The notes beneath the pieces were generated by a model. The model made no database searches and was not told the DNA's origin. It saw only the letters and a list, made by a program, of their open reading frames with translations. A DNA stretch of 64,000 nucleotides. Origin: Mycobacterium spongiae. GTDB lineage: Bacteria; Actinomycetota; Actinomycetes; Mycobacteriales; Mycobacteriaceae. Below, one piece after another: positions 2,523 through 43,785 of the stretch; the stretch's first letter is position 1, and each line of letters opens with the position of its first letter. Made by a program: the position numbers and the translations under genes. The DNA is taken from the NCBI RefSeq assembly GCF_018278905.1, contig NZ_CP046600.1, positions 3,720,001 through 3,784,000 on the forward strand, in the 5' to 3' direction.

Positions 2523-3617
2523 TCAGGCTGGCGTCAGCGTGTTCCGGTCCTCATCGGTGCCGCCGGCTCCGTCGTCGCGGCGGCCGGCCATCTCACCGGA
2601 GATCGGCGGTACCCGGGTGGCGCGCACGTAGACAGTGTCGCCCTCCCGTAGCGCGAGCGCCTCGGCGTCCCCGCGGGTGATCTGGGCGGTGAAGGCGCCC
2701 CCGGTGGCCGCGCTGGTCAACTCGACGCGGACCTCGAAGCCCAACACCACTACCCGGTCGACGATGGCGCGCGAGACGCCGGTGGATTCCCCGGTGCCGT
2801 CAGCGGTGGCGACTGCCATCTGAGGATTCCGGCCGACCCGGATGTCATGCGGGCGGACCAGAGCACCGTTCAGCGACGACACCGCACCAAGGAAGGACAT
2901 GACGAAGGCGTTCGCCGGGGCATCGTAGACGTCGGTCGGGCTTCCGATCTGCTCGATCCGGCCCTTGTTGAGTACGGCAATCCGATCGGCCACATCCAAC
3001 GCTTCGGCCTGGTCGTGGGTGACTAGCACAGTGGTGACGTGCACCTCGTCATGCAGGCGGCGCAGCCAAGCCCGAAGATCCTCGCGCACTTTGGCGTCCA
3101 GCGCTCCGAATGGCTCGTCCAGCAGCAGCACCTCGGGGTCCACGGCCAGCGCCCGGGCCAGCGCCATCCGCTGTCGTTGACCACCGGACAGCTGGTGCGG
3201 GTAGCGGCCCTGGAATCCGGTCAGACCCACTACCTCGAGCAGGTTGTCCACCTTGGCCTTGATCTCCGGTTTGGGGCGCTTGCGGATCTTCAACCCGAAC
3301 GCCACGTTGTCGCGCACCGTCAAGTGCTTGAAGGCGGCGTAGTGCTGGAACACGAAGCCGATGCCGCGCCGTTGCGGGGGCACTCGGGTGACGTCGCGAC
3401 CGTTGATCGTGATGGTTCCACTATCGGGCTGATCGAGGCCGGCAATGGTGCGCAGCAGGGTCGACTTGCCCGATCCGCTGGGGCCCAGCAATGCGGTCAG
3501 CGAACCGGCTGGCACCACGAAATCCACCCGATCCAACGCGACGAAGTGGCCGTACTGCTTGTAGGCGCCATGCAAAACGATCGCGGGGGCGCTGGACGTG
3601 GGGCCGGTGTCGGTCAT
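2523..3617 (-). CDS. cysA1: Sulfate/thiosulfate ABC transporter ATP-binding subunit
   Basis: 364 residues, ATG at 3617 with AGGAG about 10 nt upstream. Walker [10 protein letters not shown] is at residues 45-53, signature LSGGQ at 143-147, Walker B LLLDEP at 164-169 and the H-loop histidine at 201. The C-terminal ~130 residues form the regulatory OB-like (TOBE) domain of CysA/MalK-type ATPases, ending in a charged tail. It powers sulfate import through the CysT/CysW membrane pair. It is last in the order subI-cysT-cysW-cysA1, starting 15 nt after the cysW stop, so co-translation is likely. Confidence 0.96.
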
Positions 3618-3632
3618 GGTGGAGTCTCCTTG

Positions 3633-4451
3633 TCACGCCTGGCTAATCGCTCGACTTCGGCGGGCGTCCAGCGCCACTTGGACGATCAGGACCACCACCG
3701 AAACAGCCATCAGCAGTGTCGACAGCGCGTAGGCGCCGTACTCGGCACCGCGGTGGTAGCGGTCGGCGACCAACAGCGTCAGCGTTTGCGACGTCCCGGG
3801 CAGATTGGACGACACCATGATCACCGCGCCGTATTCACCGAGGGTTCGAGCGACCGTCAGCACGATGCCGTAGGTCAGGCCCCATCGGATGGACGGCAAC
3901 GTGATCCGCCAGAATGTCTGCCACCAACCGGATCCGAGTGTGGCCGCCGCCTCCTCCTGATCGGTTCCCAATTCATGCAGCACGGGTTCGACCTCGCGTA
4001 CCACGAACGGCAAGGTGACGAACAGGCTGGCGAGCACGATTCCGGGCAAACCGAAAATGACTTTGAGCCCCAAGTCCTTCTCGACGAAACCCAGCGCACC
4101 TGCAGATCCCCAGAGCAGGATCAGCGCCACACCGACGATGACGGGCGACACCGCGAAAGGCAGATCGATAATCGCCTGCAGCGCTCCCCTACCACGAAAA
4201 CGGTTGCGGGCCAGTACCAACGCGGTAGGAATACCGAAGATCACATTCAGTGGCACGACAATGGCCACCACCAGGAGCGAGAGGTTGAGCGCCGATATCG
4301 CCGCCGGCGTGCTGATGTAGTCGTAGAACTGTCCCAGCCCGGGTTGGAAGGTCCGCCACAGGATCAGCACCACCGGAACGACCAGCAATACCGCGACATA
4401 GGCGAGCGCGACCACTCGGAAGAGGTAGCGAACCGCGCGTGACGGCCTCAC
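3633..4451 (-). CDS. cysW: Sulfate ABC transporter permease CysW
   Basis: 272 residues with about six hydrophobic membrane segments. The start is GTG at 4451, overlapping the cysT TGA in a GTGA junction. The cytoplasmic EAA loop that docks to the ATPase is visible as EEAAATLGSGWWQTFWRITLP around residues 165-185. It forms a heterodimeric channel with CysT for sulfate or thiosulfate. The 4-nt overlap supports translational coupling inside the subI-cysTWA operon. Confidence 0.95.
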   Translation of the reverse strand: MRPSRAVRYLFRVVALAYVAVLLVVPVVLILWRTFQPGLGQFYDYISTPAAISALNLSLLVVAIVVPLNVIFGIPTALVLARNRFRGRGALQAIIDLPFAVSPVIVGVALILLWGSAGALGFVEKDLGLKVIFGLPGIVLASLFVTLPFVVREVEPVLHELGTDQEEAAATLGSGWWQTFWRITLPSIRWGLTYGIVLTVARTLGEYGAVIMVSSNLPGTSQTLTLLVADRYHRGAEYGAYALSTLLMAVSVVVLIVQVALDARRSRAISQA

Positions 4452-5323
4452 GCCGCCATCTCCTCGCGCTGGGCCGCACGGGCGCCAATTGTTCGCAACA
4501 CGAGCAGTACGAAGAACGAGATCGAGAGCAGCACAATCGATATCGCGGCGGCGCCCGTCCGGTCGTCATTCTCGATCAGAGTGCGGATCCATTGCGACGA
4601 CACTTCGGTCTTACCCGGCACCGCGCCGCCGATGAGCACAACCGAACCGAATTCGCCAATGGCTCGCGAAAACGCCAGCCCCGCACCGGACAACAATGCC
4701 GGCGTCAGCGACGGCAGCACAACGGACGTGAAGACTTTCCACCCGCTGGCGCCCAGCGACGCCGCCGCCTCCTCGGTCTCTCTATCGATTTCCATCAGCA
4801 CCGGTTGGACGGCGCGAACGACGAACGGCAACGTGACGAACGCCACCGCCACCCCAACGCCAGCGGCCGTGTGCTGCAGATGAAGACCTACCGGACTGTT
4901 ATTCCCGTACAGGGCCAACATCACCAGGCTGGCGACAATCGTGGGAAGCGCGAACGGCAAATCGATGATCGCATCGACAAGCCGTTTGCCAGCGAAGTCG
5001 TCACGCACCAGTACCCATGCGATCAGCAGACCGAATGCGGTATTCACCACCGTGACGCCGGCCGCAATCGTCAACGTCACCCGAAACGACTCCAGGGCGG
5101 CGTGCGAGGTGACCGCCAGCCAGAAGGCCGACCAGCCGCCGCCCGCTGCTTGCCAAGCGATGGCGGCCAGCGGCAACAGCACGATCACCGAAAGCCAGAG
5201 CACCGCGACACCGAGCCGAACCGAACTGCTGCGCGCGCGGCCGAAACTGCGCACACCCACCTCACCCCCGCGGGGATCGAGTTCCGGCCGGACAACCTCC
5301 GGGTCTGGCGCCACCGCCTGCAT
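4448..5323 (-). CDS. cysT: Sulfate ABC transporter permease CysT
   Basis: 291 residues with a ~30-residue charged N-terminal extension before the first membrane segment. The EAA loop reads EEAAASLGASGWKVFTSVVLP. The start ATG at 5323 overlaps the subI TAA as TAATG. It is paired with CysW as the second permease half. Gene order and overlaps match the M. tuberculosis sulfate operon, which is required for sulfate uptake and sulfur auxotrophy phenotypes (established for that species). Confidence 0.95.
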   Translation of the reverse strand: MQAVAPDPEVVRPELDPRGGEVGVRSFGRARSSSVRLGVAVLWLSVIVLLPLAAIAWQAAGGGWSAFWLAVTSHAALESFRVTLTIAAGVTVVNTAFGLLIAWVLVRDDFAGKRLVDAIIDLPFALPTIVASLVMLALYGNNSPVGLHLQHTAAGVGVAVAFVTLPFVVRAVQPVLMEIDRETEEAAASLGASGWKVFTSVVLPSLTPALLSGAGLAFSRAIGEFGSVVLIGGAVPGKTEVSSQWIRTLIENDDRTGAAAISIVLLSISFFVLLVLRTIGARAAQREEMAA

Positions 5324-6396: not shown

Positions 6397-6664
6397 GGCT
6401 GTCCTTCCGGTGCGGGACGTGTGGACGATGGTCCCGTAGCTGTGGAAGGCGATCCCAGTACACGTCACGCGAGCTCACCCACTCCACACCGAACCGCGCC
6501 CGGGTTGGGGGTCAGAGGCAACAGTGCAGGTCAGATGCGGTGCCGCAGCCGGGGTTGACGACATAGCCCCCCAAGGCATCCGATGCTGCGTGCATGCCGC
6601 GAAGCCTAACAGAATTCGCCAGGCCGACCACTGGGCCGGCTAACGGGCTGGCGTGGGTTCGCGC
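6397..6664. other. Non-coding stretch upstream of subI
   Basis: No convincing gene is seen here. It should hold the subI promoter and the end of whatever transcript comes from the two small membrane genes further upstream. I could not pick a clear -10/-35 pair or a known riboswitch fold by eye. Confidence 0.5.
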
Positions 6665-6741
6665 CTCATCGGGTGACCTCATCGGGTGACCTCATCGGGT
6701 GACCTCATCGGGTGACCTCATCGGGTGACCTCATCGGGTGA
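6665..6741. repeat. 13-bp tandem repeat, six copies
   Basis: The unit CTCATCGGGTGAC is repeated five times without change from 6665 to 6729, followed by a sixth copy of 12 bases. The period is not a multiple of three. On the minus strand each unit reads GAGGTCACCCGATGA, so each carries a Shine-Dalgarno-like GAGG about 7 nt before an ATG that overlaps TGA. The stop codon of the 25-residue ORF at 6731-6808 lies inside the last unit. Perfect identity of the copies suggests recent slippage expansion. Confidence 0.95.
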
Positions 6742-6808
6742 ATAGCCACGCGATGATCACCAGCGCCACGAGCACCACGAGGACCAGAGTGACGTGCGAC
6801 CGCGGCAT
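6731..6808 (-). CDS. Putative 25-residue single-pass membrane peptide
   Basis: The minus strand encodes MPRSHVTLVLVVLVALVII followed by AWLFTR and TGA. The ATG lies 4 nt after the stop of the upstream small membrane gene, and that gene's final codons supply GAGG about 7 nt before the ATG. The composition is one basic N-terminus, one ~17-residue hydrophobic helix and a basic end, as in bacterial small membrane proteins. The stop codon is in the 13-bp repeat array, so repeat changes alter what follows it. No homologue is recalled; it is called on ribosome-binding site, spacing and hydrophobicity only. Confidence 0.45.
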   Translation of the reverse strand: MPRSHVTLVLVVLVALVIIAWLFTR

Positions 6809-6812
6809 CCGA

Positions 6813-7016
6813 TTACCTCGACGTTTCATCGAGGTGGCGGGCGCGGCGCATCAACCCGATGCCCTTGCCGAGCAGGACATCCAGCAACGCCGCCAAGAGA
6901 TATGCCAGAACCAACACGACAGGAATCACAACGAGTGCTTGCAGCACGAACGGGAGCCCGGAGAGCCAGAGCTCAACGCTGTCCCACCAATTGAGGAACC
7001 CGTTCACCGGGCTCAC
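6813..7016 (-). CDS. Small conserved membrane protein (Rv2401A-like)
   Basis: 67 residues from GTG at 7016 (VSPVNGFLNWWDSVELW...), ending TAA at 6813. GTG at 7007 is an alternative start with AGGGTGAG upstream. The frame stays open further upstream, but that part is arginine-rich and looks non-coding. The protein has an amphipathic tryptophan-containing start, one long hydrophobic segment (PFVLQALVVIPVVLVLAYLL) and a basic tail. A small membrane protein is annotated at this place in M. tuberculosis. Function unknown. It is divergent from the trehalase gene and appears to form a two-cistron unit with the 25-residue ORF. Confidence 0.65.
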   Translation of the reverse strand: MSPVNGFLNWWDSVELWLSGLPFVLQALVVIPVVLVLAYLLAALLDVLLGKGIGLMRRARHLDETSR

Positions 7017-7169
7017 CCTATTAGTGCCCGGACCGGAAACCAATCTGTAGGTCGCCACTCGCCGTGTCCGGCCGGATCTTCGGGGGAAAGCGCCGCCGAG
7101 CCAGCGATGGGCGGGCACCACACGGCGCCCGACACGGGGACGCAAAGTCGACCTAGGTGGACGCCGGGC

Positions 7170-9248
7170 ATGTCGACAGATGATGATGGCGGGATGGTCC
7201 TGCAAACCCAACCCGCTGACCAACCGACCTCGCCAGCCGCCCGAGACGCCCAATCTGAGGCGCTCGAAGCGCGTCCCCAGGGCGCGCCCACCGACGGGCC
7301 CGTCGAGTTCGGTCTGCCCGCGGCAGTTGCGTCCAATGCGTCGTTGCGCAACCCGTTTCCCCCGATCGCCGACTACGCGTTTCTGTCCGACTGGGAAACA
7401 ACGTGCCTGATATCACCGGCCGGTTCGGTGGAATGGATGTGTGTCCCCCGGCCGGACTCCCCGAGTGTGTTCGGCGCGGTATTGGACCGCAGCGCCGGCC
7501 ATTTCCGGATAGGCCCCTACGGCGTTTCGGTGCCCGCCGCTCGCCGCTACCTTCCCGGCAGTCTGATCATGGAGACCACCTGGCAAACCCACACCGGATG
7601 GCTGATCGTCCGCGACGCTCTGGTCATGGGGCCATGGCACGACATCGAGCGGCGATCGCGCACGCATCGCCGTACTCCGATGGACTGGGACGCCGAGCAC
7701 ATCCTGTTGCGGACGGTGCGTTGTGTCAGCGGGACCGTCGAACTGATGATGAGTTGCGAACCGGCGTTCGACTACCACCGACTCGGCGCCAACTGGGAGT
7801 ACTCGGCCAACGCCTACAGCGAGGCCATCGCACGTGCCACCAAGCAACCAGACGCCCACCCGACGCTGCGGCTGACCACCAATCTGCGGATTGGGCTCGA
7901 GGGCCGTGAAGCGCGGGCACGCACCCGGATGGTCGAGGGCGACGACGTCTTCGTGGCCCTGAGCTGGACGAAGCACCCGGCACCACAGACCTACGAAGAA
8001 GCCGCCGACAAGATGTGGAAGACCACCGAGTGCTGGCGGCAATGGATCAACATCGGCAACTTCCCCGACCACCCGTGGCGGGCGTATCTGCAACGCAGCG
8101 CGTTGACGCTGAAGGGGCTGACGTACTCGCCTACCGGCGCGCTGCTGGCGGCCGCGACCACGTCGCTGCCGGAAACCCCACAGGGCGAACGCAACTGGGA
8201 CTACCGCTACGCCTGGGTTCGCGACTCGACGTTCGCGTTGTGGGGGCTCTACACCCTGGGATTGGACCGAGAGGCCGACGACTTCTTTGCGTTCATCGCC
8301 GACGTGTCCGGCGCCAACAACAACGACCCCCACCCATTGCAGGTGATGTACGGCGTGGGCGGTGAGCGCAGCCTGGTCGAAGAGGAGTTGCACCACCTGT
8401 CCGGTTACGACCAGGCGCGCCCCGTACGAATCGGCAACGGCGCCTACAACCAGAACCAGCACGACATCTGGGGCTCGATTCTCGATTCGTTCTACTTGCA
8501 CGCCAAGTCGCGCGAGCAAGTCTCGGAGACGTTGTGGCCGGTGCTCAAGCGGCAGGTCGAAGAGGCGATCAAGCACTGGCGGGAGCCCGATCGGGGGATT
8601 TGGGAGGTCCGCGGGGAGCCGCAGCACTTCACGTCGTCGAAGGTGATGTGTTGGGTGGCGCTGGACCGTGGGTGCAAGCTGGCCGAGCGGCAGGGTGAGA
8701 CGAGCTATGCCCAGCAGTGGCGAGCCATCGCCGAGGAGATCAAGGCCGACATCCTGGAGCACGGAGTCGATTCCCGGGGTGTGTTCACCCAGCGATATGG
8801 CGATGACGCCCTGGACGCTTCGCTGCTGCTGGTGGTGCTCACCCGGTTCCTGCCGCCGGACGACCCACGGGTGCGCAACACCGTGTTGGCCATCGCCGAC
8901 GAACTCACCGAGGAAGGATTGGTGCTGCGCTACCGAGTCGAGGAGACCGACGACGGGCTCACCGGTGAGGAAGGGACGTTCACCATCTGCTCGTTCTGGC
9001 TGGTGTCGGCGCTGGTCGAGATCGGTGAGGTGGTTCGCGCCAAGCGGCTGTGCGAGCGGCTCCTGTCTTACGCAAGCCCATTGCTGCTTTACGCCGAGGA
9101 AATTGAGCCGCGGACCGGGCGGCACTTGGGCAACTTCCCGCAGGCGTTCACCCACCTGGCGCTGATCAATGCGGTGGTCCATGTGATCCGCGCTGAGGAG
9201 GAAGCCGATAGCTCCGGAATGTTCCAGCCCGCCAACGCCCCTATGTAA
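7170..9248 (+). CDS. GH15 family trehalase (Rv2402-like)
   Basis: 692 residues from the ATG at 7170, which has AGGTGG 9 nt upstream; ATG at 7194 is an alternative and part of the N-terminal ~50 residues may be disordered. An N-terminal beta-sandwich is followed by the (alpha/alpha)6 barrel of glycoside hydrolase family 15. Family signatures include GERNWDYRYAWVRDSTFALW, NQNQHDIWGSILD, the general-acid glutamate in GIWEVRGEPQHF and a second glutamate in GEEGTFTICSFW. The M. smegmatis homologue has been shown to be a trehalase, so trehalose hydrolysis to glucose is the likely reaction. It is cytosolic with no signal peptide and is transcribed alone. Confidence 0.88.
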   Translation: MSTDDDGGMVLQTQPADQPTSPAARDAQSEALEARPQGAPTDGPVEFGLPAAVASNASLRNPFPPIADYAFLSDWETTCLISPAGSVEWMCVPRPDSPSVFGAVLDRSAGHFRIGPYGVSVPAARRYLPGSLIMETTWQTHTGWLIVRDALVMGPWHDIERRSRTHRRTPMDWDAEHILLRTVRCVSGTVELMMSCEPAFDYHRLGANWEYSANAYSEAIARATKQPDAHPTLRLTTNLRIGLEGREARARTRMVEGDDVFVALSWTKHPAPQTYEEAADKMWKTTECWRQWINIGNFPDHPWRAYLQRSALTLKGLTYSPTGALLAAATTSLPETPQGERNWDYRYAWVRDSTFALWGLYTLGLDREADDFFAFIADVSGANNNDPHPLQVMYGVGGERSLVEEELHHLSGYDQARPVRIGNGAYNQNQHDIWGSILDSFYLHAKSREQVSETLWPVLKRQVEEAIKHWREPDRGIWEVRGEPQHFTSSKVMCWVALDRGCKLAERQGETSYAQQWRAIAEEIKADILEHGVDSRGVFTQRYGDDALDASLLLVVLTRFLPPDDPRVRNTVLAIADELTEEGLVLRYRVEETDDGLTGEEGTFTICSFWLVSALVEIGEVVRAKRLCERLLSYASPLLLYAEEIEPRTGRHLGNFPQAFTHLALINAVVHVIRAEEEADSSGMFQPANAPM

Positions 9249-9276
9249 CCAGCCGAGCACCGGCGACCGATGTCGT

Positions 9277-10065
9277 TCAGCTGAGCGCGCTGATCTTCTC
9301 CATCATGGTGCGTGCGATGTCGATGGCGCTGGTGGAAACTTCTCCCGATCCTTGGTCCGACTGGCTGTGCGCGCTGTAGAAGGCGACTTCGACCTCGACG
9401 AGGCAGTTCACCCGCACCCCGATCGCGCGAGCTTCAGGAATGGTTCCCGAATGTGAGCCGGACGTCGACTCCTCGGACACGGTCGCCGCGAGGACCGAGT
9501 TGGCAACACGGACATCCTCGATCTGGTCACGAAAGCTGAGCCTGGCGCTGCGCAGGGTCAATACCGTTCCATCGCATGTGTCCCATTGCTGGGAGAACTT
9601 GGTGAACAGCGCGTCGGCCTCGGCGGCCGTGGGCAGGGCGACCACGGCCTCGTCCACGCTGATCACCTTCCCGGAATCCCCATCATCCCACCAACTCTCC
9701 CGCGCGACATGTGTGACGTTGGCGGACTGGTAGGCGGCGCGCTGAAGCATCGCGACGACACCGACGCACTCGACAGGCGAGGACAGGACATAGGCACCTG
9801 ACAGCTCGTCGGAACCGCCGAACCGCGGCGGCAATTCGGGATCGGCGGCGAAGGGCTGGTCGAGCATGCGGGACAAGGCGGTGCCGTCGAGCAGTACTTC
9901 CTTGATGATCGACCCGGCTAGCGGTCGGGGCTTCATCCCCGGCGCGGGGTACGCGGTGCCGGTGATCACGGCGGTACAGCCGGTGGCCAGCGCAGCGACC
10001 AACACCGTGACCATCGCCGACCATGTGGCTCTCATCCGGTCGTCACCGTCGCGCCGCGACCCCAT
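9277..10065 (-). CDS. lppR: Lipoprotein LppR, PknH_C-like sensor fold
   Basis: 262 residues. The chosen ATG at 10065 has AGAAGG 6-7 nt upstream and lies 13 nt after the lepA stop. The sequence has a short basic start, a hydrophobic core and the lipobox LATGC with Cys30, so it is an exported lipoprotein. The mature part resembles the PknH extracellular sensor domain family shared by several mycobacterial lipoproteins, with spaced cysteines (VECVG, WDTCDG, VNCLV) that would form disulfides. Ligand unknown. The position directly downstream of lepA matches M. tuberculosis. Confidence 0.85.
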   Translation of the reverse strand: MGSRRDGDDRMRATWSAMVTVLVAALATGCTAVITGTAYPAPGMKPRPLAGSIIKEVLLDGTALSRMLDQPFAADPELPPRFGGSDELSGAYVLSSPVECVGVVAMLQRAAYQSANVTHVARESWWDDGDSGKVISVDEAVVALPTAAEADALFTKFSQQWDTCDGTVLTLRSARLSFRDQIEDVRVANSVLAATVSEESTSGSHSGTIPEARAIGVRVNCLVEVEVAFYSAHSQSDQGSGEVSTSAIDIARTMMEKISALS

Positions 10066-10078
10066 TTCGTGCCTTCTG

Positions 10079-12016
10079 TCATTTCTTACCTTTGTCGGCG
10101 GCGGCATCGGCGGACAGCGCGGCCACGAAGGCTTCCTGGGGTACGTCAACCCGGCCGATGGTCTTCATCCGCTTCTTGCCTTCTCGCTGCTTCTCCAGGA
10201 GTTTGCGCTTGCGGGTGATGTCACCCCCGTAGCATTTGGACAGCACGTCCTTGCGGATCGCGCGGATGTTTTCCCGGGCAATTATTTTCGAGCCAATGGC
10301 GGCCTGGACCGGGACTTCGAACTGCTGGCGCGGGATGAGCTCCTTGAGCTTGGCGGTCATCTTGTTGCCGTAGGCTGCGGCCCCGTCTTTGTGCACGATC
10401 GCGCTGAACGCGTCCACGGCCTCGCCCTGCAAGAGGATGTCGACCTTGACCAGTTGGGCCTCCTGCTCGCCGGCGTCTTCGTAGTCGAGGCTGGCGTAAC
10501 CGCGGGTCCGTGATTTCAGTGAGTCGAAGAAGTCGAAGATGATCTCCCCGAGAGGGATCGTGTAGCGCAGCTCGACTCGCTCGGGCGAGAGGTAGTCCAT
10601 GCCGCCCAACTCGCCGCGGCGCGCCTGGCACAGCTCCATGATTGTGCCGATGAACTCGCTGGGCGCGATGATGGTGGTCTTCACAACGGGCTCGTAGACC
10701 GTTCGGATCTTGCCCTCCGGCCAATCCGACGGATTGGTCACGACAACGGCGTCATCTGCCTTACCTGCCTTTCCCTCCAACACGACCCGGTAGACGACGT
10801 TGGGCGACGTGGAGATCAGATCCAGGTCGAACTCGCGCTCCAGGCGCTCCCTGGTGATCTCCATGTGCAGCAGTCCCAGAAAGCCACAGCGGAACCCAAA
10901 GCCCAACGCCACCGACGTCTCCGGCTCGTAGGTCAGCGCCGCGTCATTGAGTTGCAGCTTGTCGAGGGCGTCGCGCAAATTCGGATAGTCCGAACCATCC
11001 ACGGGATACAGCCCCGAATAGACCATCGGCTTGGGTTCGCGGTAACCAGTCAGCGCTTCCTCGGCGCCATGGCGGGCGGTCGTCACGGTGTCGCCGACTT
11101 TGGACTGCCGCACGTCTTTGACCCCGGTGATCAAGTAGCCAACCTCGCCAACGCCGAGACCCTCGCTCGCTTTCGGTTCGGGCGAGACGATGCCCACTTC
11201 CAGCAATTCGTGGGTGGCGCCAGTGGACATCATCGCGATGCGTTCCCGCGGGCTGATCTTGCCGTCGACGACGCGAACATAGGTCACCACACCGCGGTAG
11301 ATGTCGTACACGGAGTCGAAGATCATTGCGCGGGTAGGGGCGTCGGCATCTCCCTCGGGGGGCGGCACCTGACGGACCACCTCGTCGAGCAGCTCGTCCA
11401 CCCCCTCACCGGTTTTGCCCGATACCCGCAACACGTCGGCGGGTTCGCAACCGATGATGTGGGCGATCTCACCCGCGTAGCGGTCCGGATCGGCCGCCGG
11501 AAGGTCGATTTTGTTGAGCACCGGAATGATCGTCAGGTCACGGTCCAGCGCGAGGTACAGATTAGCCAGAGTCTGCGCTTCGATGCCTTGCGCCGCATCG
11601 ACCAGCAGCACCGCGCCCTCACACGCCTCCAGCGCCCGCGAGACCTCGTAGGTGAAGTCGACGTGGCCGGGGGTGTCGATCAGATGCAGGACGAACTCGT
11701 CGTCGCCGGTCCGCCACGGCAGCCGTACATTCTGCGCCTTGATCGTGATACCACGTTCGCGCTCGATGTCCATCCGGTCCAGGTACTGGGCACGCATCGA
11801 GCGGTCATCGACCACCCCGGTCAGCTGCAACATGCGGTCGGCCAGCGTCGACTTGCCGTGGTCGATGTGGGCAATGATGCAGAAGTTCCGAATCTGCGCC
11901 GGCGGCGTAAAGGTCTTGTCGGCGAAACTACTGATGGGAATCTCCTGGAACGGCGGACGGGCATTCAGCCTATCCGTGCCGGGCGACCAAGACACATCGA
12001 CATCCAACCGCCGCAC
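10079..12016 (-). CDS. lepA: Translation elongation factor 4 (LepA)
   Basis: 645 residues from GTG at 12016. The exact start is uncertain because only the segment from [13 protein letters not shown] onward is conserved. G1 is AHIDHGKST at residues 49-57, followed by DTPGHVDF (G3) and NKIDLP (G4). EF-G-like domains II, III and V and the LepA-specific C-terminal domain follow, ending in the basic [17 protein letters not shown] tail. It is a ribosome-dependent GTPase that remodels or back-translocates stalled ribosomes. It is divergent from the PemK-like gene with only 22 bp between the start codons. Confidence 0.96.
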
Positions 12017-37193: not shown

Positions 37194-38129
37194 TACCCCA
37201 GGGTAACGGGCCTTGGCTGACCGAGTAAGACAGCCTGTTAGGCCCCCGCGGGGTTGGGGACGTGGCGGTATCGGTGCCGGCAAACCCGCCCGCCTCGGGG
37301 ACACCAAAAAGAAGCCTGCGTACACGAACCCGTAGAGGTGAAAATCAATTCCAAGGAGCAACCAGACCCCAAGATGAAACAGGCTCATCACGAGCAGCCC
37401 GACGCGAAACAGCCGGGGAAAAAACACTGCCGCGACTAACCAGCCTTCGGCGAACAGCGTCGCATAGTCGAGCAGCTTCCAGAACACGGCGCTGTCTAGC
37501 TGCAAGAGCCACGGTGCCAGCGGCCCTGACCTGCGGCTGCCCGCGGTGACCGCGACGAAGAACCGGGTGGCCTGGCGAGCGGGATCGAGCCACCCGGTCG
37601 CCGCCTTCGCTGCGGCAGCGGTAAACATCCCGAATGCAATCAGCGTTGCGTACACCAGCATTGCGTAGCCGCTGGGTTGGGCAGCCTTGCGACGGCAGGC
37701 GTCCACAGACCAGGCCGATCCCCACCCCGCGAGACCGAGCATGAGGGGTGCGACGTCGTACAGGATGAGGTGGTCGGCCTTGCCAAACGAATACGCGAGC
37801 CCGCTGCACCCGACAAGCACCACAGAGAGGCAGCCCGAAGCAGTCCTGGTCTTCCAGCCGATCACGACCCAGATTGCGACAAGAGCGCGAACTATCTCGA
37901 GCGCATGAACCACGCCGGCCGGCGCGGGACCGGGAAGAAGGGCGAATGGCCCTGATGGAGGATCGAAGCCAACCGCCGACATCCTCGCGATCCACCCGAT
38001 GTTCCTGGGCCAGATCACGACATATGTTGCGAATGCGATTCTCAGCAGTGCCATCGGTCGCGATGCGGGGCGATAGCCGTCACTGATCACGTCGATCGCT
38101 GTGGGTGCGCGATCACGCACCGTGCTCAC
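37194..38129 (-). CDS. HTTM-type multi-pass membrane protein, open into proA
   Basis: 312 residues from GTG at 38129 (overlapping the previous TGA as GTGA) up to the proA ATG, with no stop codon in between. About seven hydrophobic segments are visible, including [39 protein letters not shown] and [25 protein letters not shown]. The layout resembles HTTM / vitamin-K-carboxylase-like membrane domains. The last ~35 residues before ProA are proline- and arginine-rich linker. Either translation continues to give a 738-residue membrane-ProA fusion, or the native stop has been lost. Family call is moderate. Confidence 0.6.
37200..37205 (-). promoter_or_regulatory. -10 box of a leaderless proA promoter
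   Basis: On the minus strand TACCCT is followed by GGGGTA and then the proA ATG. The 6-nt spacing places transcription start at the ATG itself. The -35 region is weak (TTACTC at 17-bp spacing). Confidence 0.5.
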
Positions 38130-38728
38130 CAACGAACCTCGCGAACCGTCGCCGGGCCAGCAGGTGTGCGTGCCAGCGTTCGGATGTCCAGGATCACCGG
38201 TTGCCAGGTAACCCGAAGCCCGACGGGATCCGGCCCCAGCTCGAGCCGCTCTGCGTGAGCCTTCAGCCACTTCACGGTCTCATCGGTCGGCTCCGAAGCC
38301 ACCTCGGATGACGGCCGCAGCAGCCGGTCCAATGTCTGCGATGCCGGCCCAGGGGGAAGCGGCGCGAGCAATGCCGCTGCGTTGACGGTGTGCTCGGTCC
38401 CATCTCGATTGATGACGTGAACCGTGCGTTCCGCTACGTGCGCACGCGCATCGGTGCCAACATTCTCCGCGCCAAATACCGGCATTGTCACAACCGGGAA
38501 TGGTTGTCGCCCAGCGACCGGGAACGACGCACCGACGACAAACTGGGCAACCAGCAGGATCCACAGCCCGACGATCAACCAGAGCCGCCATGTTCCCGGC
38601 TGCTCCGCGGTTCCCGGGACGCGGCGAGTACTTCTCCTCAAGATGTCAACGCCGGCGATGGCGGTCCACGCAGACAGTTGCCCAACGCCGCCCGTGTGCC
38701 CGGCCCTGCTGACACCATGGCTCCCCAA
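38126..38728 (-). CDS. Uncharacterised single-pass membrane protein
   Basis: Up to 200 residues from TTG at 38728; the start is uncertain, since the N-terminal ~45 residues look unstructured and no clear ribosome-binding site precedes a start codon. One membrane helix ([19 protein letters not shown]) is followed by an extracytoplasmic domain with [21 protein letters not shown] and [12 protein letters not shown]. Its stop overlaps the GTG of the HTTM-like gene. Pairing of a single-pass protein with an HTTM protein is a recurrent arrangement, so the two probably work together. Function unknown. Confidence 0.55.
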
Positions 38729-38737
38729 CCACCCGAG

Positions 38738-39421
38738 TCAGTAGTGGTAGCAGGAGTGGTAGCAGTGAACGCTGCTGCACCACGTGCTGGCAGCTGGGCC
38801 GTCCCCGGGGGCCGGTGTGACCCGCCACGTTGTTTCGACTGCGTTACCCGATGGACGGTCGGCGGTGTCGATGACGGCGCAGTGCAGCGCGCGCCGCGAC
38901 TTGTCGCAGGTTTCCATCAATTCCTGATCCTCGGAGATTCCCAGCTGATTGCGGATCAGCCGCACGCCGAACCGCTCGATCTTGTCGTGCGCCCGCAGTC
39001 GTTGGGCCAATCCGGCGAGCACCGCCTCATCGTCGGGTCCGATTGGTGCAGCTGGCCCGAAATCGGCGGGCCCGGCGAATTCCATCCCGACCAGGCCTAC
39101 ACCTGCAGACACCTCGGCGTCGAACCGGACTGCAGTGGCGCGTAATCCGCTCGGGGAGAACGCGGCTCGGTCGATGAGGGTGGTATGCGTCTGCGGCGGC
39201 CTACCAATAGCGCGCTCGACGAACACCTCCCCGGGTTCGGGAACGAAGTGCCTGTGCAGCAGCCACACAGCGAATCGCTGCCAGGTATGAGTGTTGACCA
39301 GGTAATCGCCCAGTTCGTTAATGCAATCTTTGTCATCCCGCGTCAGCACACCGACCTTGCTAGCGTCCATATCGGCCAGCTCGGCGTAGTCGTCGACTCC
39401 ATGGTCGCGGATTGTCAACAT
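38738..39421 (-). CDS. Uncharacterised protein with Cys/His-rich tail
   Basis: 227 residues from the ATG at 39421 with AGGAG 7 nt upstream. A soluble, mixed alpha/beta composition is followed by an unusual C-terminal end WCSSVHCYHSCYHY that could bind metal. Two segments, RFAVWLLHRHFVPEPGE and AHDKIERFGVRLIRNQLG, look structured; I do not recognise the family. It is first in a minus-strand chain with the single-pass and HTTM genes (9 nt gap, then overlap). The 5' leader carries a strong hairpin at 39457-39474. Confidence 0.6.
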   Translation of the reverse strand: MLTIRDHGVDDYAELADMDASKVGVLTRDDKDCINELGDYLVNTHTWQRFAVWLLHRHFVPEPGEVFVERAIGRPPQTHTTLIDRAAFSPSGLRATAVRFDAEVSAGVGLVGMEFAGPADFGPAAPIGPDDEAVLAGLAQRLRAHDKIERFGVRLIRNQLGISEDQELMETCDKSRRALHCAVIDTADRPSGNAVETTWRVTPAPGDGPAASTWCSSVHCYHSCYHY

Positions 39422-39703: not shown

Positions 39704-40552
39704 ATGGACGTGCGGTGGCACGACAGCGTCGCCGACTTCCGCGCTAGCGCCGTCGATGTCTACCGGGACGACCCAGTAACCGCCACGGTGGAGCTGATGG
39801 TGTTGTCGGGGCGACTGGTCGACCGCAATCCGGCGCCGCTGCTGATCACGGTGTGGAGCGGCGGGAAGGCGGTCGGAGCGGCGTTTCAGACTTTGCATTC
39901 GCCGCTGTTGTGCAGCGGCCTGCCGGAGCGGACCATCGCGAGTGCGGTCGCCCGAATCTCAACTGTGAAAAAAGATCTGGGCAGCGTGCGGGGCCCACAT
40001 GGCATCGTGGCGAGCTTTGCCGCCGCGTGGCAGACGGCCACCGGGGCACTCGGCACAGTGCGCATACGGGAGCGGCTGCACCGCCTCGATGGACTGCATT
40101 CGCCCGCGGGCGTGGCTGGTGAAGCCCGACGGGCCCGGCCAGCTGACAAAGAACTCCTCCATGATTGGCTCAGCCGGTTTCGCGCCGAGGCGCTGGGCCA
40201 GCTGGTCGATAGCGCCGCCGATCCGGGGCGGGTGCGCACAGCCAAGGAACCGCCGAACGAATTCCTGCTGTGGACGGTAGCCGGTGATCCAGTGAGCCTC
40301 GCTGGCGTGCGCCTGCCAATTCTGGGGGTCTCTCGGATCGGACCGGTGTATACCCCGCCCGAGATGCGCGGGCACGGTTACGGTTCGGCGGTGACGGCCG
40401 CGGCCGCGGACTGGGCGATCGCGGCGGACGCCGGTGAGGTGGTGCTGTTCACCGATCCGGAAAATCCGGCGTCCAATGCGGCGTACCGACGCATCGGGTT
40501 TCAACCGGTCAGCGATTTCGCCCGCATCGATTTCCCACCGGGCAACCGATGA
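39704..40552 (+). CDS. GNAT-family N-acetyltransferase
   Basis: 282 residues from the ATG at 39704. A degenerate N-terminal GNAT-like half is followed by a C-terminal FR47-type GNAT domain with GPVYTPPEMRGHGYGSAVTAA (acetyl-CoA loop R-G-H-G-Y-G) and LFTDPENPASNAAYRRIGF. This duplicated form is common in Actinobacteria. The substrate cannot be told. It is transcribed away from the minus-strand unknown gene, with a 282-bp gap that holds the leader hairpin described separately. Confidence 0.82.
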   Translation: MDVRWHDSVADFRASAVDVYRDDPVTATVELMVLSGRLVDRNPAPLLITVWSGGKAVGAAFQTLHSPLLCSGLPERTIASAVARISTVKKDLGSVRGPHGIVASFAAAWQTATGALGTVRIRERLHRLDGLHSPAGVAGEARRARPADKELLHDWLSRFRAEALGQLVDSAADPGRVRTAKEPPNEFLLWTVAGDPVSLAGVRLPILGVSRIGPVYTPPEMRGHGYGSAVTAAAADWAIAADAGEVVLFTDPENPASNAAYRRIGFQPVSDFARIDFPPGNR

Positions 40553-40608: not shown

Positions 40609-41634
40609 ATGGAGGCGAGCGCGGGGCGAGCACGCCTGGGCGCGTTGGTGTTCGGCGCTATGGCCGCGGAGGCGGTATTCGCCGCGGCACAACTGCGGAT
40701 CGCCGATGTCATCAGCGACGGGCAGCGCAGCTGCGACGACATTGCTGCCGAAATTGGCGCGCTCCCGACAGCACTCGCCCGACTCCTGCGCGTGCTCGCA
40801 GCGCTGGAGCTCCTCGCTGAGCCGGTACCAATGCAGTTCCGGCTGACCGAGGCCGGCCAGCTGCTGAGGGCCGATCAGCCGGATTCGATGCTCGCATTTG
40901 TGCGCATGTTCGGCGACCCCGTCATGCTCTCCGCATGGCGTGAACTCGAAACCGCGATCCGCACGGGTGAGACGCCATTCGAAAGAATTTACGGCACTGG
41001 CTTTTTCGAACACCTGTCTGCGAACCCCGATCTGTCCGAGCGGTTCAACGCGGCGATGCGACAGGGCACCGCCGTGGCTGCCCGACAAGTGCTGCGCCAC
41101 TACGATTTCGGAGCTTTTCGCACGGTGGCCGACATCGGTGGCGGCGACGGCACCCTGTTGGCAGCGGTGTTGGTCAACCACCCCAGCACCCGGGGCATCC
41201 TCTACGACACCGCGGCGGGCCTCGCGCAGGCCGGGGCCACTCTCGCCAAGGCAGGAGTCGGTGACCGCTGCGAGGTCCGCACCGGGGACTTCCTGGAGGC
41301 CGCTCCCCCCGGCGCCGATCTGTACATCGTCAAAAGCGTGCTCCAGGACTGGGACGACGACAACGCGGGCACGATCCTGGCCCACATCCGCGCGGTCGTT
41401 CCCGACCACGGACGACTACTCATCATCGAACCGGTGCTCCCCGAGCGAGTCGACGCCTCTGCGCCCGTCACGATGTACCTCGGCGACCTCAACATGTTGG
41501 TCAACCTCGGCGGCCGGGAACGGACACTAGCGGAACTCAAGAGGCTCTGCGAGGAAGCACATTTCAGCACGGCTTCCACGATTCGGCTGGCACCTCCGGT
41601 CGCTCTGTCCATGCTGGAGGCGACACCGCGCTAG
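40609..41634 (+). CDS. O-methyltransferase, winged-helix plus SAM domain
   Basis: 341 residues. The N-terminal ~100 residues form the dimerisation/winged-helix domain of the acetylserotonin/caffeate-type O-methyltransferase family (FAAAQLRIADVISDG, LPTALARLLRVLAALELL). The SAM domain has DIGGGDG at 175-181 and the catalytic-region motif KSVLQDWDDDNAGTILAHIR, where this family often has His followed by DW. Here the expected catalytic His position reads Gln (LQDW), so base catalysis may differ. Such enzymes usually tailor natural products. It is convergent with the HExxH-methyltransferase fusion gene, 17 bp apart. Confidence 0.82.
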   Translation: MEASAGRARLGALVFGAMAAEAVFAAAQLRIADVISDGQRSCDDIAAEIGALPTALARLLRVLAALELLAEPVPMQFRLTEAGQLLRADQPDSMLAFVRMFGDPVMLSAWRELETAIRTGETPFERIYGTGFFEHLSANPDLSERFNAAMRQGTAVAARQVLRHYDFGAFRTVADIGGGDGTLLAAVLVNHPSTRGILYDTAAGLAQAGATLAKAGVGDRCEVRTGDFLEAAPPGADLYIVKSVLQDWDDDNAGTILAHIRAVVPDHGRLLIIEPVLPERVDASAPVTMYLGDLNMLVNLGGRERTLAELKRLCEEAHFSTASTIRLAPPVALSMLEATPR

Positions 41635-41651
41635 CACGTGGTACCCACTGA

Positions 41652-43706
41652 TCACGCCCGCTTGGCGGCGATCACCACGCCCCCGGACGCGTCGATATCG
41701 GCCACCACAAGCTTCTCGTGATCGAGCACGCTTCGCCGCAACGCTTCTGTGTCGGTGTCGCCGACCGCACGCGCACGGGCAGTCACGGCGGTGTAGTCGA
41801 AGATCAGCATGCCGCCGGGTCGCGACGCGGCCACGATGGCGTCGACGGGCAAGCCAGCGCGTGCGTCGACAAGGATCAGGTCGAACGTACCCGGGTTGCC
41901 GGCCAATGCAGCGTCGACTTCCGAAGTTTCGATGCGCACGTACGGGGGCCACGGGTAAGTATGCGCGGCCGCGCTCAACGTTTCGTCGGTCTCGACCGAC
42001 AGGATGGCCACATCTGTGCGGGAACCGAGCCCGGCCACCAACCACGCGGTCGCGATGCCGACGCCGGCACCCAGATCGAGCATCTGCGCGCCTGGTCGCA
42101 CGTGAGCGGCCTGCACGGCAAGCAATCGGCCCACGTTGTCCCGGCAGGATCTGGTGGTGCGATGCTCGACAGCTCGGCGCTTGGCGTGAGCGACGGGCGC
42201 CGGGATGTTCGTCGCGAGCGCGTACAGCGCATCGCTGGCCTCATCGACCATCTGCCCGACCATCGCATCGTGCGTACCGGACGCACTCAGCCGGTACCCG
42301 TCCGGGGAGGCGTCCAGTAACCAGGTCTCGACGGTGCGCCGGATCTCGGGATAGTGATCGGCGAGTTCGGCGCCGACCAAGCCGGCGAGGGCGGTGTCGA
42401 GTCCGTCGAGTTGTCGATGGGCGCCAAGGTCGCCGAGGATGGCGCGTGCGCTCGCTACGTCCTGTCGAGCGAGGGCGGTGAGCTGTTCGCGTGCGGCCTC
42501 CGGGTGCTCCGAGCGCTCGGACAGCAACTGTTCCACCCGGTCGGTCTCTCTGTGGTAGCGGTCGAGGTAGAGGTGAAGGGTGGAGCCATCCGGGGCCGGG
42601 GCTGGGTCGAGGGCGTCCTGGAGGGTGTCTAGGTGTGACTGCAGCCAGTCGGCGAGCTCCTGACCGAAGGGGCCGAGTTCGTTCCAGCACATCGGCTGCG
42701 CTCGCAGCTGGTGGCCGAGGTAGTGGGCTCGCGTCCGCGCGCGGTGGCTCTCGACTATGCCGGACGGGGCGCCGTAGGTGGTTTCCAGCTCGGGTGCGCG
42801 CCGCTCGGCCACCATACTGAGAAGTGTCAGGTGCACGTAGACGTGAAATGCGGCGAGGACCCGCCAAGCATGCCAACGGTTGGCCCCGGAGAGCAGCGAT
42901 GGGTTCCACGGTGTGACGACCGGGCGCTGGACGTATCGCCCGTCGGATCGCATGAGAGTGTCTCCGTCGAGCAAGTCGTAGAGTTTCATATGCACTGACT
43001 CGTGCAGCAAGTGCTCTGCGACCCACCATGGGCTGCCGAGGCTTTCGCGCAGTAGGACCGTCCCGGACAGGTCGGGGCGTGAGCTGGACCCGAAGAACGC
43101 CTTCGACGTCGGTACGCAGGCAACGATGTGGGCGTGGTGCAAGGTGCTGGGCGCCAACGACGGGAGTAGCTCGTCGAGCAGCCGGGCGCCGGCCGTCAAC
43201 ATGTCGATAGTGCCTGCGTCGGGTGTGCTGGGCAGCATCACGTAGCGCTCTGTCAGCAGTTCCCGGAAGACCCGACCGTACGTGTCGTCGGGGTGTTCGT
43301 CCCGCCAGATCCATCCGTGGTGGGTGCTTGGACCCAACCGCACTAGCGAGCCGTCCTGCAGCGGACTATCGGTGCCGCCGCGCTCCAGATAGCCGGCAGC
43401 GGCGGAGAAGACGGCCGCACAGTCGGTCAGCCGGAGGAGCCGGGGCCCGCGTGGGGTATCCGGAGTCAGCTGTTTGTGGGCGTGCACGATCGCCGATCGC
43501 AAGGTCGTCTCGGTGAAGAGCCGGCGGTGATCGCCGTCGGGACGGTGCGCTACCGCGTCGAGAAGCTCACCGGCGGCGGGCATGCGGGGCGTGAGCTCTT
43601 CGAGCAGCTGAACGAGGCAATCGCGCCGGTGGTCGAGAATGTGTAAGTCATTCCCGAAGGGCTTCTGAGACGCCAGCGCCCGCTCAACGGATTCACACGC
43701 CCCCAT
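41652..43706 (-). CDS. HExxH peptide-modification-like domain fused to a methyltransferase
   Basis: 684 residues from the ATG at 43706, which has AAGGAG 6 nt upstream; GTG at 43742 is an alternative. Residues ~150-300 resemble the HEXXH-motif domain found in RiPP maturation proteins: HLLHESVHMKLYDLLDG with HESVH at 235-239, followed by RPVVTPWNPSLLSGANRW. Members studied elsewhere are iron/2-oxoglutarate peptide beta-hydroxylases (established for the family). A helical middle region (~300-520) leads to a class I SAM methyltransferase with LDLGAGVG at 543-550 and acidic VETDE at 571-575. No radical SAM gene or obvious precursor peptide is adjacent. The two-domain call is from motifs; the substrate is unknown. 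Confidence 0.65.
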   Translation of the reverse strand: MGACESVERALASQKPFGNDLHILDHRRDCLVQLLEELTPRMPAAGELLDAVAHRPDGDHRRLFTETTLRSAIVHAHKQLTPDTPRGPRLLRLTDCAAVFSAAAGYLERGGTDSPLQDGSLVRLGPSTHHGWIWRDEHPDDTYGRVFRELLTERYVMLPSTPDAGTIDMLTAGARLLDELLPSLAPSTLHHAHIVACVPTSKAFFGSSSRPDLSGTVLLRESLGSPWWVAEHLLHESVHMKLYDLLDGDTLMRSDGRYVQRPVVTPWNPSLLSGANRWHAWRVLAAFHVYVHLTLLSMVAERRAPELETTYGAPSGIVESHRARTRAHYLGHQLRAQPMCWNELGPFGQELADWLQSHLDTLQDALDPAPAPDGSTLHLYLDRYHRETDRVEQLLSERSEHPEAAREQLTALARQDVASARAILGDLGAHRQLDGLDTALAGLVGAELADHYPEIRRTVETWLLDASPDGYRLSASGTHDAMVGQMVDEASDALYALATNIPAPVAHAKRRAVEHRTTRSCRDNVGRLLAVQAAHVRPGAQMLDLGAGVGIATAWLVAGLGSRTDVAILSVETDETLSAAAHTYPWPPYVRIETSEVDAALAGNPGTFDLILVDARAGLPVDAIVAASRPGGMLIFDYTAVTARARAVGDTDTEALRRSVLDHEKLVVADIDASGGVVIAAKRA

Positions 43707-43785
43707 CGCCGCTCCTTCCGACACGCGGGTGCACGAGGTCACTACCGTATGTCCAGCTCGGTCTTAGCGACCCGATCAGGATGGC

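Follow-up and report, generated by a model that had tools for sequence, protein, structure and literature searches.

A hydroxylase-methyltransferase fusion gene

The stretch of DNA analysed here (the window; 64,000 nucleotides of Mycobacterium spongiae contig NZ_CP046600.1, positions 3,720,001 to 3,784,000) carries on its minus strand a gene, 41652..43706, for a 684-residue protein in which profile and fold matches identify a HExxH hydroxylase fused to an O-methyltransferase. On the same strand lie all of the features assigned to it: the ribosome-binding site for its ATG start, GGAAGGAG (43712..43719); an aKG-HExxH fold at residues 10-380 (42567..43679); the motif HESVH at residues 235-239 (42990..43004), of which H235 and H239 are proposed iron ligands; His288 within AAFHVYVH (42843..42845), proposed as the third ligand, like the other two from conservation in homologues; and a class I O-methyltransferase domain at residues 500-684 (41655..42209), which keeps D614 and D637 and has Tyr638 at the third metal-site position.

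The sequence-only reading that drew attention to this gene had compared its HExxH domain with the aKG-HExxH peptide beta-hydroxylases, and the TIGR04267 profile, the conserved residues and the fold all bear this out. The profile scored 40.9-45.1 bits on the window protein, a narrow margin over its curated cut-off of 40, and among eight further HExxH proteins it exceeded 40 bits on those of the genome loci L031, L033, L034 and L037. The predicted fold of the domain matched the HExxH domain of ChlB (8s5f), with HESVH on helix 226-251 and His288 on helix 280-311. Our alignment and counts use 120 listed of the 197 homologues found at E <= 1e-5 from the 8000 best candidates. Among these 120 the motif noticed by the earlier reading is nearly invariant, with H235 in 119/120 and E236, H239, H288 and Y290 each in 120/120; more remote HExxH proteins have a His at the His288 position in most cases, not all. 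Conservation thus marks H288 as probably the third iron ligand, and the HExxH half is likely an aKG-HExxH peptide beta-hydroxylase, an activity predicted from sequence and structural model. Recognition of the aKG-HExxH enzymes as oxygenases is recent, and few substrates have been assigned to them. One homologue, P0110 (1044 residues), is a double HExxH protein with two HExxH units within a single chain.

The C-terminal half most resembles cation-dependent O-methyltransferases, by profile as well as by fold, and its model is confident except at residues 641-649. PF13578, present in most listed fused homologues, reached 24.7 bits on the window protein, under its gathering score of 26.3, and PF01135 reached 13.2 bits, under its gathering cut-off of 20.3. 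The fusion is common and not confined to a mycobacterium: of the 120 homologues listed, 94 have fused length (at least 600 residues, the double-HExxH P0110 left out of the count) and the 26 classed as unfused include some partial or mis-started proteins (P0031 and P0108 end in methyltransferase).

In a tree of 120 tips (114 listed homologues and six genome loci, with six short or odd matches removed), the window protein falls within a long-stemmed clade of 47 tips (support 1.0), hereafter clade A, made up of 39 fused and 8 unfused tips (P0080 and L032 are identical in sequence). The Asp-Asp-Asp/Asn triad, whose positions we take to be the metal ligands of cation-dependent O-methyltransferase family 3, is incomplete in the window protein (D614, D637, Tyr638), and across the fused tips of clade A D637 is kept in 17/39 and D638 in 10/39, compared with 55/55 and 54/55 (one gap) in fused proteins outside the clade, where D-D-D is near-invariant. 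An alternative cut by identity, which includes one non-clade-A protein, gave 18/40 and 11/40. Residues of the S-adenosylmethionine (SAM) site in the 39 fused members are G546 in 37, G550 in 39, E572 in 34 and D614 in 38. These counts suggest weaker constraint on the methyltransferase metal site in the window's clade, and because that site is eroded there, methylation by the window protein is uncertain.

Precursor peptides beside relatives

At the genome loci of relatives, a short same-strand open reading frame (ORF) lies immediately upstream of the HExxH gene. A profile built from 11 of these ORFs, applied to every frame 25-400 residues long, matched upstream of the HExxH gene at E <= 5e-13 in 19 of 25 loci (L031-L055, of which 11 are Janthinobacterium and non-independent). 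The match in L050 was weak and degenerate (E 0.013), the His/Asp ORF of L039 was spotted by eye alone, and the profile found nothing among frames of this size in L032, L037, L041 and L054 or in 10 more remote loci (L056-L065). With leave-one-out profiles, the upstream ORF was the top match at E <= 1e-5 in 9/11 loci, failing in L035 and L039, while in two loci outside the profile it scored 5.7e-8 (L126) and 1.5e-12 (L129). Precursor and enzyme occurred on contigs of exactly equal size for 13 of the 120 listed enzymes versus a mean of 0.28 at shifted sizes; all 13 enzymes are of fused length and lie outside clade A.

Querying the database with an alignment of 12 precursors yielded 199 proteins at E <= 1; the 120 listed are nearly all unnamed or 'hypothetical', with a Pfam domain on none, and His and Asp are clustered in the cores of the 29 inspected among them. 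Three precursors compared with NCBIfam models gave no match, nor did a search of viral contigs or, for the single precursor tried, of plasmids. A literature search, in which subscription journals were thinly covered, turned up no paper that we recognised as treating a methyltransferase-fused HExxH enzyme or this precursor family, and the class formed by the His/Asp-rich precursors and the bifunctional enzyme is apparently undescribed. In Paraburkholderia kirstenboschensis (L036) the precursor spans 7572-7817 and the fusion enzyme 7971-10094, whereas L047 is a Janthinobacterium pair with an unfused enzyme. In L035, a second upstream frame (3604-4680) has a weak profile match and several C-terminal His/Asp clusters. 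Other neighbours that at first looked conserved were set aside, most of them being antisense frames or reflecting close synteny within Janthinobacterium.

A conserved small precursor ORF near homologues, which the sequence-only reading had raised, is therefore present in relatives, but no member of the family turned up in the window or, by profile search, in its genome. Between 35.5 and 50 kb of the window, none of 248 frames (30-200 residues) has a run of at least four His/Asp in its last 45 residues. We also considered a precursor in trans and rejected it: the pattern CAYCAYGAYCAY gave 79 matches in the M. spongiae genome versus 111 for a reversed control, and a script run over the surroundings flagged no leader-like segment. 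The wider pattern SAYx4 gave 1327 matches, the first 100 of which were listed.

Tailoring partners in relatives

In two Streptomyces loci the enzyme is unfused and a homologue of the fusion's C-terminal methyltransferase is encoded as a protein of its own (L039:6620-7276 and L126:6722-7414, both on the minus strand); the one in L039 scores 21.6 bits with PF01135, above the 20.3 cut-off. Both proteins begin with a leader-like N-terminus whose own-pair score was reached by 0 and 3 of 2000 shuffles, and to which the precursor profile matches weakly (E 0.04 and 0.22); judged by its sequence, it is perhaps a docking tag. In another branch of the family the partner is an aldo-keto reductase, fused in L053 (7950-10781; an Oxalobacteraceae strain) and adjacent in L034 (9500-10711), where the precursor core is NHDTHTSPGGHFTHHHP, and L040 (1901-3085). 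The cyanobacterial locus L037 has a Nif11 leader precursor (9798-10073; PF07862, E 5e-12) and a radical SAM/SPASM protein (10341-11528) downstream of the HExxH gene and a CHAT-domain gene (6464-7864) upstream; in L054, a radical SAM protein lies one gene from the HExxH gene. By their predicted functions, these methyltransferase, aldo-keto reductase and Nif11/radical SAM partners are consistent with a ribosomal peptide that is first hydroxylated and then tailored. Sub-threshold DUF4915 matches lie downstream of the HExxH genes in L034 (10779-11657; Nocardia) and L038 (9433-10311; Actinomadura).

Distribution and a shared gene block in mycobacteria

Among 396 genomes of the genus, 13 matched TIGR04267 and 7 of these scored above the cut-off; homologues of the window protein at E <= 1e-20 occurred in 3/397 relatives, own genome included, and a second draw from the genus recovered the same three genomes (3/296). 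At E <= 0.001, 28 of 148 relatives matched, and all matches except the own gene and that of genome G049 cover only the methyltransferase end or the linker; G049 has an unfused copy (34% identity) with none of the window gene's block neighbours within the 16 kb read. In Nocardia, the genus of L034, 2/150 genomes matched, both in the hydroxylase part only. Five loci (L066-L070, from G348, G237, G375, G320 and G337) hold mycobacterial HExxH proteins that score above the TIGR04267 cut-off and were not linked to the window protein by tblastn.

Convergent with the fusion gene in the window is a separate O-methyltransferase gene (PF00891 plus dimerisation domain; 40609..41634, plus strand), followed in the same block by a GNAT acetyltransferase (39704..40552, plus strand) and, divergent from the latter, a gene for a 227-residue protein (38738..39421, minus strand) whose C-terminal tail is TWCSSVHCYHSCYHY (38741..38785, minus strand). 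The corresponding tail is TWCGGVHCYHYCWGC in L032, a record of genome G230. There the enzyme copy is unfused and 53-57% identical to the window protein, and beside it stand a GNAT (60% identical), a 53-residue PF00891 remnant and the 227-residue protein (73% identical), in the gene order and orientations of the window. At L032:7995-10458 the remnant is all that is left of the PF00891 gene, and the methyltransferase domain of the enzyme is missing too. In G230 the block sits between purA and a gene labelled x7246 here. In the window's genome it lies just upstream of proA; x7246 and purA are adjacent there, and a search of the surrounding 400 kb, including the gap that separates the two, gave no block match. 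Based on these two genomes, the block appears to move as a unit; G+C does not distinguish it from its surroundings. Members of the GNAT family are widespread in the genus (56/248), the closest copy being that of G230, and the next-closest GNAT genome, G070, has no other block gene within the 16 kb read.

The 227-residue protein had no Pfam or NCBIfam match, nothing credible in a sequence search of the PDB and no match on plasmids. We scanned frames of more than 60 residues in 240 sequences totalling 1.74 Mb, with some overlap between them, and met the motif C.{2,3}HC.H.C only in copies of the 227-residue pair; from its sequence in two genomes, the CxxVHCYHxC tail is the best candidate for the mycobacterial substrate. 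Beyond this gene come an ORF of 200 residues (38126-38728) and, at about 37332-38054, a membrane protein that resembles HTTM (21.8 bits against a cut-off of 27.7); neither was matched in L032. We rejected DUF2461/YjbR proteins as partners. A DUF2461 gene does lie 79 bp upstream in the window, but among 120 listed of 133 DUF2461 homologues, own genome aside, an equal-size contig was shared with one listed hydroxylase (6175 bp; P0268, P0062), and that hydroxylase falls outside clade A.

Proposed activity and alternatives

We favour, with moderate confidence, a model in which an iron/2-oxoglutarate peptide beta-hydroxylase and a cation-type O-methyltransferase act on a ribosomal peptide, the substrate having probably changed in mycobacteria. 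For the family as a whole, the precursor would dock through the leader helix LSxxELxxLQxxxDxLE; the HExxH domain would hold iron by H235, H239 and probably H288 and hydroxylate core His and/or Asp residues at their beta-carbon; and the fused methyltransferase would methylate the resulting hydroxyl, so that a beta-methoxy residue is formed. In mycobacteria the tail of the 227-residue protein would take the place of the core, and methylation may have become weaker or disappeared. More tentatively, at rather less than even confidence, we suggest that the two-gene unit represents a widespread class of ribosomally synthesized and post-translationally modified peptides (RiPPs) in which the bifunctional enzyme converts His/Asp-rich cores into beta-methoxy (O-methyl beta-hydroxy), probably metal-binding, products, and of which the block is a mobile offshoot redirected to the tail. 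For a large aKG-HExxH branch, probable substrates that share a leader and His/Asp-rich cores are now at hand, and its methyltransferase fusion or aldo-keto reductase pairing predicts steps after hydroxylation. Since beta-hydroxy-Asp and -His serve as metal ligands in siderophores, these ribosomal products may bind metals as well.

Several observations weigh against this model. TIGR04267 is borderline in the branch and drops below 40 bits in L032 (39.1), L047 (35.6), L036 (35.3) and L053 (28), and the sequence match to 8s5f is by itself non-significant (E 0.67 and 0.18). In the mycobacterial loci examined (window, L032/L081 and L080), no precursor-profile match was better than E 0.4, and the best match of the profile in the M. 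spongiae genome (E 0.285) lies inside a 647-residue frame. The 227-residue partner is known from two genomes, and its predicted structure has a pLDDT of 33. To these come the eroded metal site of clade A and several close relatives that stop near the linker, without a methyltransferase, some of them possibly truncated records.

The last two points lend themselves to a reading we consider quite possible, if less probable than the full model: that the window protein has a working hydroxylase half but an inactive methyltransferase half, which in mycobacteria is a remnant, either decaying or structural. The scarcity of D637 and D638 in clade A, its unfused members (P0034, P0035, P0042, P0052, P0053, P0061 and P0080/L032) and the lack of a detectable methyltransferase domain in L032 all agree with it, whereas the SAM-site residues kept in most fused members and the confident modelling of the domain outside 641-649 do not. 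An active methyltransferase could alternatively target a carboxylate (an Asp side chain, PIMT-like, in aspartimide chemistry) and not the new hydroxyl. Such a target is suggested by the Asp in the cores, by the weak PF01135 similarity together with the stronger score of the L039 stand-alone protein, and by the RiPP-associated PIMT enzymes described in PMC13001092; it seems unlikely to us given that the best matches are cation-dependent O-methyltransferases and that D-D-D is near-invariant outside clade A.

Oxidative cleavage of the peptide backbone by the HExxH half, beyond hydroxylation, is about equally unlikely. PflC/PosC perform both reactions, Gln hydroxylation and backbone cutting (PMC12636437), but a fused methyltransferase and aldo-keto reductase partners suit a hydroxyl that is retained, and the 29 precursors inspected share no conserved ARMD-like end motif; L037 has an adjacent CHAT-domain gene of its own, in a protease scan that covered few neighbours. 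A role for the mycobacterial enzyme in small-molecule chemistry, alongside the GNAT and the PF00891 O-methyltransferase encoded near it in the window (the GNAT in L032 too), we regard as slightly less probable again, as the hydroxylase persists in L032 where the PF00891 gene is down to its remnant, and peptide precursors accompany most relatives of known surroundings. That the protein is an ordinary zincin protease is highly improbable: the HExxH motif alone and the hydrolysis seen with PflC lacking its leader (PMC12636437) would allow it, against the TIGR04267 match, the ChlB fold and the leader/core precursors beside relatives.

Comparison with known systems

ChlB, a radical SAM fused aKG-HExxH beta-hydroxylase, resembles the window protein in fold, but identity is 16%, the window protein carries an O-methyltransferase instead of the radical SAM domain, and its relatives use a different precursor family. 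The HExxH enzyme with a fused radical SAM domain acts as a hydroxylase on Asp and His (PMC12636437), and PesO hydroxylates Pro (PMC13060819). PflC/PosC, PesO and BpmH/BipH are the same kind of enzyme (IPR026337 / aKG-HExxH) and likewise hydroxylate peptides; the available parts of their accounts place MNIO enzymes in these pathways and an NHLP-type leader on PflA, and make no mention of a methyltransferase fusion. O-methyltransferase family 3 (Rv1220c 5x7f, SafC 5log, TrmR 5zw3) shares the fold, SAM site and D614/D637, whereas the window protein is fused to a hydroxylase and has Tyr as the third metal-site residue. As for Nif11-leader and radical SAM RiPP clusters, L037 has a HExxH enzyme of the same family near both, while the His/Asp precursors bear a leader of their own.
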